Shown piece by piece: positions 4,952 to 9,738 of a stretch of 64,000 bases of DNA. The position numbers and the translations under genes were made by a program. The DNA lies in the NCBI RefSeq assembly GCF_001636405.1, contig NZ_KV440950.1, positions 612,001-676,000 of the forward strand, read 5' to 3'. Position 1 is the first letter of the stretch, and every line of letters starts with the position of its first letter. The notes beneath the pieces are model-generated. The model worked only from the letters and a program-made list of their open reading frames with translations. It had not been told where the DNA came from and searched no databases. The DNA is from Peribacillus frigoritolerans. Its GTDB lineage: Bacteria; Bacillota; Bacilli; Bacillales; DSM-1321.

Positions 4952-5002
4952 TCATATGTCATGTCGACAGTAATCCATGATATATGGAGATTGAAATGTA
5001 TG

Positions 5003-5038
5003 AAAGGATTTGCCGGGAGGCAGATCCTTTTTTTATTT
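5003..5038 (+). terminator. Intrinsic terminator of the ykoGHI operon
   Basis: Stem AAAGGATTTGCC (5003-5014) with GGCAGATCCTTT (5019-5030), loop GGGA, followed by a T-rich run. Confidence 0.85.
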
Positions 5039-5201
5039 GCCAAGCTAGTTGGGGAAGTGAAGCTTCCGAATCCTTAACAATATATTAGTTCCTGGCTGCA
5101 GCATTGTTGGGAGATGGGCTGTTTATACATATTAAGAAGGAATTGAAAAGAAGAATCGCGAATAGGGGCATTAAGGAATCATATACAATGGAGGAATGAC
5201 A

Positions 5202-5684
5202 ATGGGAAATTTGGAAATGGCCCTGCACTTAAGGGAAAAGAAAGAACTCGAAAAATCCAATCGTATATTGATGGATCTCGCAAAGCAAAATCCCGGTGAT
5301 GCAGTCATACAGTATCAGTGTGCCTGGAGTTTGGATATTCTCGGACTTGAGGTAAAGGCGGTGCCCTATTATGAAGCGGCACTCGAATTAGGGTTGCCGG
5401 AGGAGGATGCAAAAGGGGCCTACCTCGGGTTGGGGAGCACATATCGCACCATAGGGGAATATGAAAAATCAAGACGGACATTGGAATCCGGACTGGCGAA
5501 GTTTCCTGGGGATAAGGCTTTATCGGTATTCAGGGCCATGGCATTTTATAATTTGGGCCAACATGATCTTGCGATGGAATCTCTTTTGAAGATCATTGCC
5601 GAAACCTCGAGGGATCAAGAAATACAATCTTATGCTAAGGCTATAGAATTTTATAGTGATAAACTGGATAAAGTTTTCACATAA
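5202..5684 (+). CDS. Tetratricopeptide repeat protein (TPR_5 type)
   Basis: A soluble 160-residue helical protein without signal peptide. At least three TPR-like helix pairs are visible: residues about 5-35 ('HLREKKELEKSNRILMDLA'), 40-75 ('YQCAWSLDILGLEVKAVPYY') and 85-150 ('YLGLGSTYRTIGEYEKSRRT', 'FRAMAFYNLGQHDLAMESLL'). Such proteins act as protein-protein adaptors; no partner can be read here. ATG 5202 is preferred over ATG 5196 because GGAGG (5190-5194) is 7 nt from the former. The gene is isolated, with the DnaA-box-rich gap directly downstream. Confidence 0.8.
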   Translation: MGNLEMALHLREKKELEKSNRILMDLAKQNPGDAVIQYQCAWSLDILGLEVKAVPYYEAALELGLPEEDAKGAYLGLGSTYRTIGEYEKSRRTLESGLAKFPGDKALSVFRAMAFYNLGQHDLAMESLLKIIAETSRDQEIQSYAKAIEFYSDKLDKVFT

Positions 5685-5703
5685 AATCGTGCTCATCCCC
5701 AAA

Positions 5704-5878
5704 CTATCCACAAACCTGTATAAAACCAGTCATTTTTACATAGCCGAAATGAATGAATCAACAAATTTGAGGTGGAAATTCTTGCTTTTGCCACTTTTAC
5801 GGATAAATGAATGTGGATAACCTCGGATTGTGGATAACTTTCCGGTGTTATTCACTACTTTTCCACAGGTAATCCACA
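5704..5878. promoter_or_regulatory. Cluster of six DnaA-box-like 9-mers
   Basis: Consensus DnaA box is TTATnCACA. Two perfect TTATCCACA sites are on the minus strand (5812-5820 and 5829-5837, 17 nt centre to centre). One-mismatch sites are on the plus strand at 5704-5712 (CTATCCACA), 5848-5856 (TTATTCACT), 5859-5867 (TTTTCCACA) and 5870-5878 (TAATCCACA). Six boxes in 175 bp of non-coding DNA between two convergent genes is far above chance. No dnaA, dnaN or DUE-like layout is nearby, so this is more like the DnaA-box clusters found away from oriC in B. subtilis than an origin. Confidence 0.7.
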
Positions 5879-5911
5879 TATTCACCTTTAATATGAAAAA
5901 AACACTGGCGA

Positions 5912-7807
5912 TTAAGTCTCCAGGAATTTTTTATTGTAATGACTTAAGGCTAAAAGGGGATAAATATAGCGATAGCTATGATAATGGATATACAAAAAAT
6001 CCGCCATTCCCTGGCCTGCAGGATAATCATTGGTCCAGCTTTCTTGTTGACCTGCACGGATGAGGTAGGCAATGCCTTTTTCAATCTCGGCTGTCGGCTT
6101 TTCTGATGCCGATATCAACGCATCCACAGCCCAGGCTGTATGTGTCAGTGTGCTTGTTCCGAGGGGGATATATCGTTGCTTGATATCACTGTAACAAGAT
6201 TCACCCCAGCCGCCATCTTCATTTTGAATTTTCTTCAACCAAGTTAAGGCTTTTTGGATGGATGGATGTCCGGTGGCTTGCCCTGCTGCCTTCATGCCGG
6301 TCAGTGCAGACCATGTGCCATATAGATAGCAGATGCCCCAGCGCCCATACCAGGAGCCATCATGCTTCTGGTCTTCCAATAGCCAATCCACCGCTCTTTT
6401 ACTGACTTCTTCCGGCTTTTTCATATTTGTATAGTTCCCCAGGAATTCCAGCGTCCTTCCTGTCAGATCAGCGGTGGAAGGGTCAGTCAGGAGATATTTC
6501 GAACCCTCTATAGGAAGAAGCTGCAGCCATTTATGGTCGTTATTCCGTTCGAAGGCTGGAAATCCACCATCATCATTTTGCATGGAAATCGTGAAGGTGA
6601 CACCGCGCTGCCAGCTGTCCCGATTATCCGGTTTCGCTTGCAATTGCTTAGCCAGCGCCCGCAGTGACGCGGTCGTATCATCGACATCCGGATTCATGGT
6701 ATTCAAATCCGAGAACCCCCAGCCGCCAGGAATTGCATCAGGATTATGGATCAGCCAATCTCCATACATATAATGCTGGCGTGACAGTAAGTACTGATTG
6801 GCGGCCTTGACCGTTTTGTCTTTGAAAGGCATTCCCGCTTCTTGAAGGGCGTAGCTTATTAAGGAGGTATTCCAAACATGGGGCGTCGTGAACTGGATAT
6901 GTGTGTGTCCCTCAATGGAGCAGGCCATCCCCTTCAGACCGGCAATGGCCTTTAGAATCACTGGATCTCTTTTCGAATATCCAATTGAAAGGAGGGCAAA
7001 GATCATGAAAAAGGTAGAGCCGAAATAATTGTACAGTGTCCCGTCTGGTTCCAGCCTGTCAAGCATGAACCTTTTCGTTGAATCCAAGGCCAAGGAATGC
7101 AAATAATCCGGATAACCAATCAAGGTTTTGACGCCTGTTTGAAGTTTGGAGAAGAAGGAACGATATTCTTTGGTACGGTATTCTTCCCACACTTGCTCTT
7201 CGGAACTGTCCTCCCTTGTTTGGAATAAATCTTTTAAACTTGGCGTGTCCGGGGTCGTGATCTGAAACTTTTTATGGCCCAGCAATAGCAATGGAATCAT
7301 ATTGACCCGCCCATAAACGGAAAGGTCATAAATGCTGACGAAAAAGGTCGGAGGCAGTAAGACCACTTCGAGTGGAATGGGGAATAGGCGCGGCCATTGA
7401 TATTGTCCGGTGACAGTAAGCATCATTTTCGTTAACATTTTGGCCTGTTTGATGCCGCCCTTGGAAAGAATGAATTGTTTGGCTTTCCTCATATGTGGAT
7501 GATTCTTATTGCGGAGTCCGCTAAAAAGAAGGCCATAGTAAGCCTCGATCGTAACCGTAACATTGCCGTCCTTCTCATCTTGGAATAGTTTCCATGACCC
7601 GTTTTCCGTTTGCTTGCTTTCGATTCTTTTTACTAAAGCCTCTATAAGAGGAGTATCTTCCATATCTAGAATTTTCAATAATATGATCATATAGGCATCT
7701 GCTGTTATCCCGGTGTCAAAGGGATAATTCCACGAACCATCAGCGGATTGGTCTTGTTTCAAGCGATGAACAAGGCGATTGATTTCCGATTGTACATCTT
7801 GGTTCAA
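5912..7807 (-). CDS. sqhC: Squalene-hopene / sporulenol-type terpene cyclase
   Basis: Class II triterpene cyclase of 631 residues, the normal length. The protonating motif D-V-D-D-T lies at residues 374-378, the same numbering as the DXDD motif of Alicyclobacillus squalene-hopene cyclase. QW-type repeats occur along the chain, such as 'QDQSADGSW', 'QNDDGGF', 'QKHDGSWYGRWG' and 'QNEDGGWGE'. In B. subtilis the orthologue SqhC makes sporulenol from tetraprenyl-beta-curcumene; which substrate is used here cannot be decided from sequence. Start chosen at TTG 7807, as AGAGGAGG lies directly upstream and the product begins near the family N-terminus; an ATG at 7873 has no ribosome site. No squalene synthase gene is adjacent. 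Confidence 0.9.
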   Translation of the reverse strand: MNQDVQSEINRLVHRLKQDQSADGSWNYPFDTGITADAYMIILLKILDMEDTPLIEALVKRIESKQTENGSWKLFQDEKDGNVTVTIEAYYGLLFSGLRNKNHPHMRKAKQFILSKGGIKQAKMLTKMMLTVTGQYQWPRLFPIPLEVVLLPPTFFVSIYDLSVYGRVNMIPLLLLGHKKFQITTPDTPSLKDLFQTREDSSEEQVWEEYRTKEYRSFFSKLQTGVKTLIGYPDYLHSLALDSTKRFMLDRLEPDGTLYNYFGSTFFMIFALLSIGYSKRDPVILKAIAGLKGMACSIEGHTHIQFTTPHVWNTSLISYALQEAGMPFKDKTVKAANQYLLSRQHYMYGDWLIHNPDAIPGGWGFSDLNTMNPDVDDTTASLRALAKQLQAKPDNRDSWQRGVTFTISMQNDDGGFPAFERNNDHKWLQLLPIEGSKYLLTDPSTADLTGRTLEFLGNYTNMKKPEEVSKRAVDWLLEDQKHDGSWYGRWGICYLYGTWSALTGMKAAGQATGHPSIQKALTWLKKIQNEDGGWGESCYSDIKQRYIPLGTSTLTHTAWAVDALISASEKPTAEIEKGIAYLIRAGQQESWTNDYPAGQGMADFLYIHYHSYRYIYPLLALSHYNKKFLET

Positions 7808-8003
7808 TGACTTTCCTCCTCTAAAAACACATTTCCGTTTATATGTATATTCAAAACTTGTCGTTGCATTCAAGAAATCATGTCAGGCGCATCGATAAAG
7901 GAGGGGGGAACTAAAAACGCTTGGGCAATGAAAGCTGCCAAAGCGTCATTTGGATCCTATCAGTAGTTCGGTTTGATTCAAAGAAGGTATGCTTTTAAAT
8001 CAT

Positions 8004-8087: not shown

Positions 8088-9599
8088 TTAACAAGGACAT
8101 TCATTAATACCATAGGGATAGATCAATTCCGGTTCTATACCTAAATTTCCATAAAAATGCTGTTCTATAAAATGTTTAATATTTATTAATTCTGAAGGGG
8201 TGGGAAAGGACGATACTTGAATGGTAGGGATGTGCTCAATTAACATATTTTTATGATCACCAATATCGGTAGAAATGAGCAGATCAAACTCCTCATATTT
8301 GAAGAGCAAATCAATACTGGAAGGATCCAATGTTGAAATAGCCACTTTATTACCATAGTGATATTTTAATACTTCCCTAATATAATCTTTTTCGTTATAA
8401 GTTCTGCACATTAATGCAACCTGTATTGTATGTTGATTCCATTTTCTCAAGACAACAGACTGTAGAAGTGAAAATATCTCTAAAACATCAAGTTTCTTAA
8501 TCGTTAAAGGCACTGAAGAAAAACTTTCAATTGCCAGTTCCTCAATTACCTGGAAAATCGGATTTGTTTCAAAGTATGGAAGGAACTGCAACATTGAATT
8601 TCCTGCACTTTCCGTTTCAAATTCAGTTTCAACTTGTATCCTTTTTAATGTTTGGGATAAATGGAATAAAAAAATATCATCTTGTGATAGATTAAAACCA
8701 ACATATTTAGAAAGACATTTTAAAAATTTAACCAAGGGAAAACCTTTTTTACTCCTCATTCTTTTTTTAATATAATTAATGTACTGTGATCTATTTAATG
8801 GTCGTTCCTCACTCATGATATAAATAGAAAAGAAGAGAATTTCCTGTAGTTGAATATCTCTTGTCGGGCATTTGGCCATATATTTTACCAATTCTTTCGA
8901 GAGCTCAAAATATTTACTACCTTCGTAAGTATTTATTAGATTTTTAGGAAATGAGATATAATGCCCCATGGAGACACGAAAATTTGATATAAATAAAATC
9001 ATTGTTAATCGCTGTAAGGCACCTGTTCTGCAAGACATTGAATATTTTGAAAACAGCTGTAATAAATCTGTTTGAAATTTTATCGTATCGATTGAATCAT
9101 CTTTAATGGTATTGGCTTCAACTGACATAAAGTCCAAATATTTCATGATGAATCTTCTAATCTTTTTTTCATCCCCTATGACTTTAAAGGGGCTTGCAGT
9201 TAATGTAACACCTGCCTCACTTACAACCTCTTGTAATTTTTCAAGGTGACGGTATGCAGTGGAACGACTAATATAAACCGCTTGGGATATCTGGGGAATA
9301 TCAACACCATCGTTCAAAAGAATTAACTTTAATGTGTGTAAATAGGAATTCTTTTCTCTTATTTGTGTTAATAAACTTTCTAATGTACCATTTTCAGGTT
9401 TAATTAGACGAACTCCAAGGTTTTCATTTTTTTTCAAAATCCATCCGTCAGGGAAAATAGACTCCAGGATTTCTAAATCACGCCAAATAGTACTTCTTGA
9501 ATACTCTGTTTTCTCGGATAATTCAGCTATACTAATCCATTTGTTACTATTAAGTAAATGAAAGATCAAGTCTGAATAACGTTTATAAAATCGATTCAT
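8088..9599 (-). CDS. Mga/AtxA-like transcriptional regulator
   Basis: A 503-residue cytoplasmic regulator of the Mga/AtxA (PRD-containing) type. Two N-terminal helix-turn-helix segments are visible: 'ISIAELSEKTEYSRSTIWRD' and 'DIPQISQAVYISRSTAYRHL'. A long helical middle follows that resembles PTS-regulation domains, then a C-terminal part resembling an EIIB-like fold ('KVAISTLD', 'DLLISTD'). Family members control surface proteins and virulence genes and respond to PTS phosphorylation; that is family knowledge. It ends the minus-strand WxL cluster, so it is a candidate regulator of it. ATG 9599 has AGGTG 5 nt upstream; ATG 9626 (nine residues longer, with AGGA upstream) is an alternative. 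The gene is clearly AT-richer than sqhC. Confidence 0.75.
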   Translation of the reverse strand: MNRFYKRYSDLIFHLLNSNKWISIAELSEKTEYSRSTIWRDLEILESIFPDGWILKKNENLGVRLIKPENGTLESLLTQIREKNSYLHTLKLILLNDGVDIPQISQAVYISRSTAYRHLEKLQEVVSEAGVTLTASPFKVIGDEKKIRRFIMKYLDFMSVEANTIKDDSIDTIKFQTDLLQLFSKYSMSCRTGALQRLTMILFISNFRVSMGHYISFPKNLINTYEGSKYFELSKELVKYMAKCPTRDIQLQEILFFSIYIMSEERPLNRSQYINYIKKRMRSKKGFPLVKFLKCLSKYVGFNLSQDDIFLFHLSQTLKRIQVETEFETESAGNSMLQFLPYFETNPIFQVIEELAIESFSSVPLTIKKLDVLEIFSLLQSVVLRKWNQHTIQVALMCRTYNEKDYIREVLKYHYGNKVAISTLDPSSIDLLFKYEEFDLLISTDIGDHKNMLIEHIPTIQVSSFPTPSELINIKHFIEQHFYGNLGIEPELIYPYGINECPC

Positions 9600-9738
9600 A
9601 TTATCACCTATTTCGTAATCGATCATAGTCCATTCCTAAACCTAAGACTACAAAAGGATTCTCATTTTATTTTCCCTGTTTAAGGAATTTACATTATTAA
9701 CTTAGAATTTTTACATCGATCTCTTATTGATAGTAACT

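Follow-up and report, generated by a model that had tools for sequence, protein, structure and literature searches.

A conserved, clade-specific cluster of predicted DnaA boxes in the convergent gap between a TPR-repeat gene and sqhC in Peribacillus

Our analysis identified a DnaA-box cluster in the 227-bp non-coding gap at 5685-5911 of the window, the whole 64-kb stretch of Peribacillus frigoritolerans contig NZ_KV440950.1 that was analysed and to which all coordinates refer unless a locus is named. The boxes, their clustering, their conservation, the clade that carries them, their distance from dnaA and their convergent gene setting are established. It is a known kind of element at a new locus, namely a real, conserved and lineage-specific predicted DnaA-box cluster. 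We consider it fairly likely that this is an oriC-proximal, lineage-specific cluster of the Bacillus subtilis type, to which DnaA would bind and which would act by titration. It is probably one of several origin-near DnaA sponges that help set replication timing. The accessible parts of the literature describe DnaA-box clusters outside oriC for B. subtilis, several of them at promoters; among the literature matches listed, titles and abstract openings made no mention of such a cluster at sqhC or in Peribacillus.

The gap is bounded by the end of a TPR-repeat gene (5196..5684, + strand, 162 aa, Pfam TPR_5) and by the end of the squalene-hopene cyclase gene sqhC (5912..7873, - strand, TIGR01507 above cutoff, first possible start 7873), so that the non-coding location claimed in a sequence-only reading of this DNA was confirmed. 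The two genes form a convergent pair with both 3' ends at the gap, which is therefore no ordinary promoter region, and a promoter scan of 5600-6000 returned no promoter-like site. A search of 5000-6200 for structured RNAs in Rfam gave two matches, both far below the gathering scores and both outside the gap. Beyond sqhC lies a gene for an AcpB/EbpR/MafR-family regulator (8088-9626, - strand; NF053736, above cutoff).

With a box defined as at most one mismatch to TTATCCACA, the gap contains two perfect and three one-mismatch boxes. The two perfect sites 17 nt apart that the sequence-only reading had described are present at 5812..5820 and 5829..5837, both on the - strand, the 17 nt being counted from start to start. 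Its four one-mismatch sites were reduced to three (5704, 5859 and 5870), since the fourth, presumably TTATTCACT at 5848-5856, has one mismatch to TTATNCACA and two to TTATCCACA; this site is not kept in all relatives. The boxes fall into two modules. The left module (5693..5712, + strand) consists of the weak box TCATCCCCA at 5693-5701, with two mismatches, and the one-mismatch box CTATCCACA at 5704-5712, 11 nt apart and in the same orientation. The right module (5811..5884) comprises the two perfect boxes followed by two one-mismatch boxes on the + strand, TTTTCCACA at 5859..5867 and, 11 nt from it, TAATCCACA at 5870..5878, together with conserved edges (an A preceding the first box, CC and GG next to boxes, and TATTCA after the last). 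The box at 5859 is contained in the string CTTTTCCACAGG, which recurs in the oriC region upstream of dnaA.

Across the 64-kb window as a whole, such sites occurred in unremarkable numbers (25 with at most one mismatch, against 20.5, sd 5.0, in shuffles), and the unusual feature is their clustering. Twenty 20-kb stretches taken at even intervals from this genome (400 kb in total) contained 120 sites with at most one mismatch, and the densest 175 bp among them held 2, compared with 5 in the TPR-sqhC gap. Nothing of comparable density was thus found in this sample, so that the outcome which the sequence-only reading had named as refuting, a similar box density in many random intergenic gaps, was not seen. 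A Poisson estimate, which ignores the real clusters of the genome, gave approximately 1e-4 stretches as dense per genome. The gap accordingly packs more near-consensus DnaA boxes into a few hundred base pairs than chance would give.

The pair TGTGGATAA-N8-TGTGGATAA occurred in exactly one copy in each of 21 of the 36 genus genomes, and a repeat or mobile element was ruled out by the single-copy state of this 17-nt box pair in every carrier. The carriers are the same 21 genomes that have a TPR homologue of at least 73% identity; sqhC was checked as the other neighbour in 13 of them. Three further genomes, whose TPR homologues share 51-54% identity, carry no more than a single one-mismatch site in the locus retrieved, and five TPR loci of 29-32% identity (L130-L134) were left out as distant. 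The absence of the pair from the other 15 of the 36 genomes implies that the cluster is dispensable at genus level.

Because the pattern search required the box pair itself, the invariance of the boxes at 5812 and 5829 in 21/21 carriers was demanded by the pattern, which placed no constraint on the remaining three boxes or on the spacing. The left box at 5704 was nevertheless present in all 21, with CTATCCACA replaced by a perfect TTATCCACA in five; the box at 5859 (TTTTCCACA) was kept in all 21, and TAATCCACA at 5870 was changed to TCATCCACA in two. The right-hand boxes were spaced 0/17/47/58 without any indel in 21/21 carriers, the whole right module aligning without gaps, while the distance from the left box to the right module varied from 98 to 159 nt. 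Columns 5694 and 5696-5703 of the left module were also invariant among carriers. Overall, invariant columns made up 43/45 of the box positions and 39/182 of the remaining gap, and in the TPR codons covered they amounted to 23/95 first and second positions and 3/48 third positions; Fisher values on these counts are not true probabilities, since the sequences are related (18 of the 21 right modules are distinct). Nine of nine close relatives, which overlap the 21 carriers and include P. frigoritolerans, P. simplex, P. butanolivorans and P. muralis, possess the full right module. The conservation that the sequence-only reading looked for in relatives is therefore present, though within one Peribacillus clade only. 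The cluster was intact in G003, where the TPR gene is split over two frames, and in G024, where sqhC is fragmented, although sequencing error may explain either break.

In an sqhC tree of 29 rows, all 12 carrier rows formed one clade (100/100 support; 100% of 200 bootstrap trees). The 17 non-carrier rows comprised 12 rows from 10 genus genomes and five from other families, and in none did the 1.5 kb downstream of sqhC hold more than two sites of one mismatch or better; the locus with sqhC in pieces (L024) was left out. By parsimony, the simplest account would be a single gain in the clade including P. simplex, P. frigoritolerans, P. muralis and P. butanolivorans. In two other genomes (G015 and G019), the TPR gene and sqhC are convergent with another gene in between and no cluster there; G015 has one perfect box within sqhC. 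The non-carrier G011, with 104 perfect boxes, retains, among the matches listed, at least the clusters at tsaD, yqeG, ywlC, rlmH and mnmE and near a yfhF homologue. An order-wide pattern search matched 6 of 299 genomes, three of them within Peribacillus. The other three matches (L135-L137), as judged by comparing offsets, share the box layout of the region upstream of dnaA in the genome of the window, so these are probably oriC and not the sqhC-gap element. The region upstream of dnaA (L032 5126-5355) has nearly the same box layout in L135-L137, two of which come from other families.

The cluster was located 368-433 kb from dnaA, always on the upstream side, in 7/7 genomes measured, which corresponds to approximately 6-8% of the chromosome (for G041 the distance is a plain position difference; G046, G048 and G050 were left out of this set). 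In all seven it is thus chromosomal, outside oriC and origin-proximal. The genome of the window itself has 83 perfect boxes, compared with 48 for a reversed control pattern, and 41 of the 83 fall in the zone reaching 15% of the genome to each side of dnaA, compared with an expected share of 30%. Ten clusters of at least two perfect boxes within 300 bp were found in it, whereas 2000 random placements gave 0.38 on average and never more than 4. Besides the one in the sqhC gap, these are upstream of dnaA, at jag-mnmE, htrA-rlmH (yydA), spoIIR-ywlC, upstream of yqeG, at tsaD-ydiF, at hflX, near a yumC-like gene, and between yfhF-like and acyl-CoA ligase genes. HflX, TsaD, the threonylcarbamoyladenylate synthase (ywlC), an ABC-F protein, a TIGR01777 oxidoreductase and a ligase scored above the NCBIfam cutoff; the remaining neighbour names (e.g., jag, mnmE, htrA, rlmH, spoIIR, yqeG and the yumC-like gene) are our presumed assignments from translations. 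Near the yumC-like gene (L035 2682-3033; 698.2 kb in this genome), four perfect boxes were observed, and because part of them may lie inside a reading frame, this cluster may be partly coincidence.

The accessible text of PMC4447404 names eight strongest DnaA sites in B. subtilis: dnaA, dnaA-dnaN, ywcI/vpr, gcp/ydiF, trmE/jag, ywlC, yqeG/sda and yydA. Six of the eight have counterparts among our ten clusters; dnaA-dnaN has one perfect box here, and no ywcI/vpr counterpart was seen among the ten. The hflX, TPR-sqhC, yumC-like and yfhF-like loci lie outside the eight sites named there. The boxes listed for another genome (G013) form clusters in a similar layout. Like the B. subtilis clusters outside oriC (ywlC, ywcI/vpr, yydA, gcp/ydiF, sda/yqeG and trmE/jag), the TPR-sqhC cluster combines several boxes in a short non-coding stretch, and like several of them it is origin-proximal. 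The gcp/ydiF cluster also occupies a convergent gap, according to the portion of PMC4447404 available. Unlike the B. subtilis clusters, the present one, a predicted DnaA site, is confined to a single Peribacillus clade.

The DnaA of this genome aligned to chain 8btg_A, which we take to be B. subtilis DnaA, over residues 1-448 with 849 bits, the DNA-binding end included. Since the host protein thus has the DNA-binding domain of B. subtilis DnaA, its box preference should be the same. Under titration, DnaA would bind the five or six boxes cooperatively. Given that the cluster lies only some 6-8% of the chromosome from dnaA, the replication fork would double it early in the cell cycle. The doubled cluster would then take up free DnaA and lower its level, and by analogy with B. 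subtilis this uptake, together with that of the genome's other clusters, may help delay the next initiation. That both neighbouring genes end in the gap makes titration more likely than control of either of them. In B. subtilis, as the available portion of PMC5295017 describes, the loss of six clusters outside oriC led to early initiation, which was strong only when all six were gone, and restoring one cluster gave partial relief. The accessible part of PMC13220808 likewise reports early initiation without the six clusters, with over-initiation not observed.

Titration alone would not need fixed box spacing, which speaks against a pure sponge; a rigid arrangement in a gap that contains no gene start is suggestive of a defined complex. 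A bolder reading, to which we give a low probability, would make the element a specific DnaA complex. Its fixed array, made up of a 17-nt and an 11-nt pair facing each other, would alter the activity or partners of DnaA, as a Bacillus-type counterpart of the E. coli datA and DARS sites, which set the supply of usable DnaA. It would have arisen once in a convergent gap, reusing an oriC-like box geometry, and would since have kept to a roughly constant distance from the origin; if so, the cluster would be more than a passive sponge. Like datA and DARS, it is a non-coding multi-box DnaA site outside oriC. The consulted part of PMC5295017 likewise assigns this control of DnaA supply to datA and DARS, and has datA working with IHF to promote hydrolysis of DnaA-bound ATP. 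The IHF and ATP-hydrolysis activities are features of the E. coli site.

With regard to oriC-like geometry, the Bacillus oriC upstream of dnaA has two boxes in the same orientation at 17-nt spacing (L032 5149, perfect, and 5166, one mismatch), as in the sqhC gap, and shares the string ACTTTTCCACAGG with the cluster. The cluster differs from oriC in its 368-433 kb distance from dnaA, is not beside dnaA/dnaN, and has no similarity to oriC beyond box-sized strings. A recent oriC copy was ruled out: the best local score of the right module against the region upstream of dnaA was 26, the weak control of 100 base shuffles reached at most 23, and of the 9 other clusters tested 7 exceeded the score of the right module.

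Alternatively, the right module might be an RNA hairpin, or the site where transcripts of both convergent genes end, and resemble DnaA boxes only secondarily; we find this explanation unlikely. The TPR gene and sqhC do converge at the hairpin, its outer arms pair in 21/21 carriers, and 5800-5900 is predicted to fold more strongly than every one of 200 shuffles, whichever strand is taken (z -3.69 each), but inward-facing boxes create an inverted repeat on their own. None of the 17 pairs of the consensus fold varies in carriers, and they are therefore uninformative for a hairpin. In the variable inner stem, a pair was lost in up to 5 of 18 distinct rows and one cell was changed on both sides; since 100 of 500 shuffles did as well, there is no covariation beyond shuffles. 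One terminator-like match was found on the + strand at 5830-5855 (9 pairs, 3 of them G-C, tail TACTTTTCCA), compared with 0.3 in shuffles; its inner stem is not kept in all relatives, and on neither strand is the outer stem followed by a T-run. The left module, which is not part of the hairpin, folds no better than shuffles, yet is as conserved. The hairpin is thus weaker than the DnaA-cluster reading, and both may be true at once.

It is very unlikely that DnaA bound at the cluster regulates the TPR gene or sqhC. A precedent exists in B. subtilis, where DnaA reportedly controls sda, ywlC, vpr and further genes from other clusters to which it binds (PMC4447404). Here, however, both genes end in the gap, 5600-6000 lacks a promoter-like site, and the boxes are intact beside the TPR gene in two frames (G003) and sqhC in pieces (G024). 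The suggestion of the sequence-only reading that this might be a conserved chromosomal DnaA reservoir or control site consequently held for density and for conservation within the clade, while its regulatory part, control of the neighbouring genes, was left unsupported. Effects on the TPR gene or sqhC through read-through or antisense transcription may occur.

Binding of the repeats by another regulator, for example a response regulator reading 11-nt direct repeats, is highly improbable. The idea draws on G011, in which 11-12-nt tandem arrays of the same 9-mers adjoin alkaline-phosphatase-like and DcuS-like kinase genes, but the sqhC gap contains no gene start, carries boxes in both orientations and has its perfect boxes 17 nt apart. 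The PhoP unit is TT(A/T/C)A(C/T)A, which by eye does not fit CTATCC, TTTTCC or TAATCC. Shared ancestry without function is scarcely credible: the carriers form one clade, and the 21 genomes are for that reason not independent, but the boxes hardly vary, in contrast to TPR third codon positions and spacers, and indels occur in the left spacer with none in the right module.

A clade-specific cluster in a convergent gap, alongside relatives without it, provides a natural experiment that sets titration against gene regulation and that also asks whether the gain of one cluster shifts initiation timing. Rigid spacing without a gene start hints that such clusters may build defined complexes and not loose sinks.

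Tandem pairs of the form TTATNCACA-N2-3-TTATNCACA were observed 18 times in G011 and 17 times in G021, compared with 0-4 times in the other 34 genus genomes. The G011 repeats lie at L093 2036-2077, L097 1110-5553, L091 2027-2058, and L094 2025-2056 and 3217-3248; several consist of three units with a shared AAGTCACTGTGAC-like string behind them, and some adjoin an alkaline-phosphatase-like gene. These repeats in G011 and G021 may represent a regulon motif or a spreading repeat. An open reading frame near the G011 repeats (L097 4093-4632) resembles, by eye, a REP-associated transposase.
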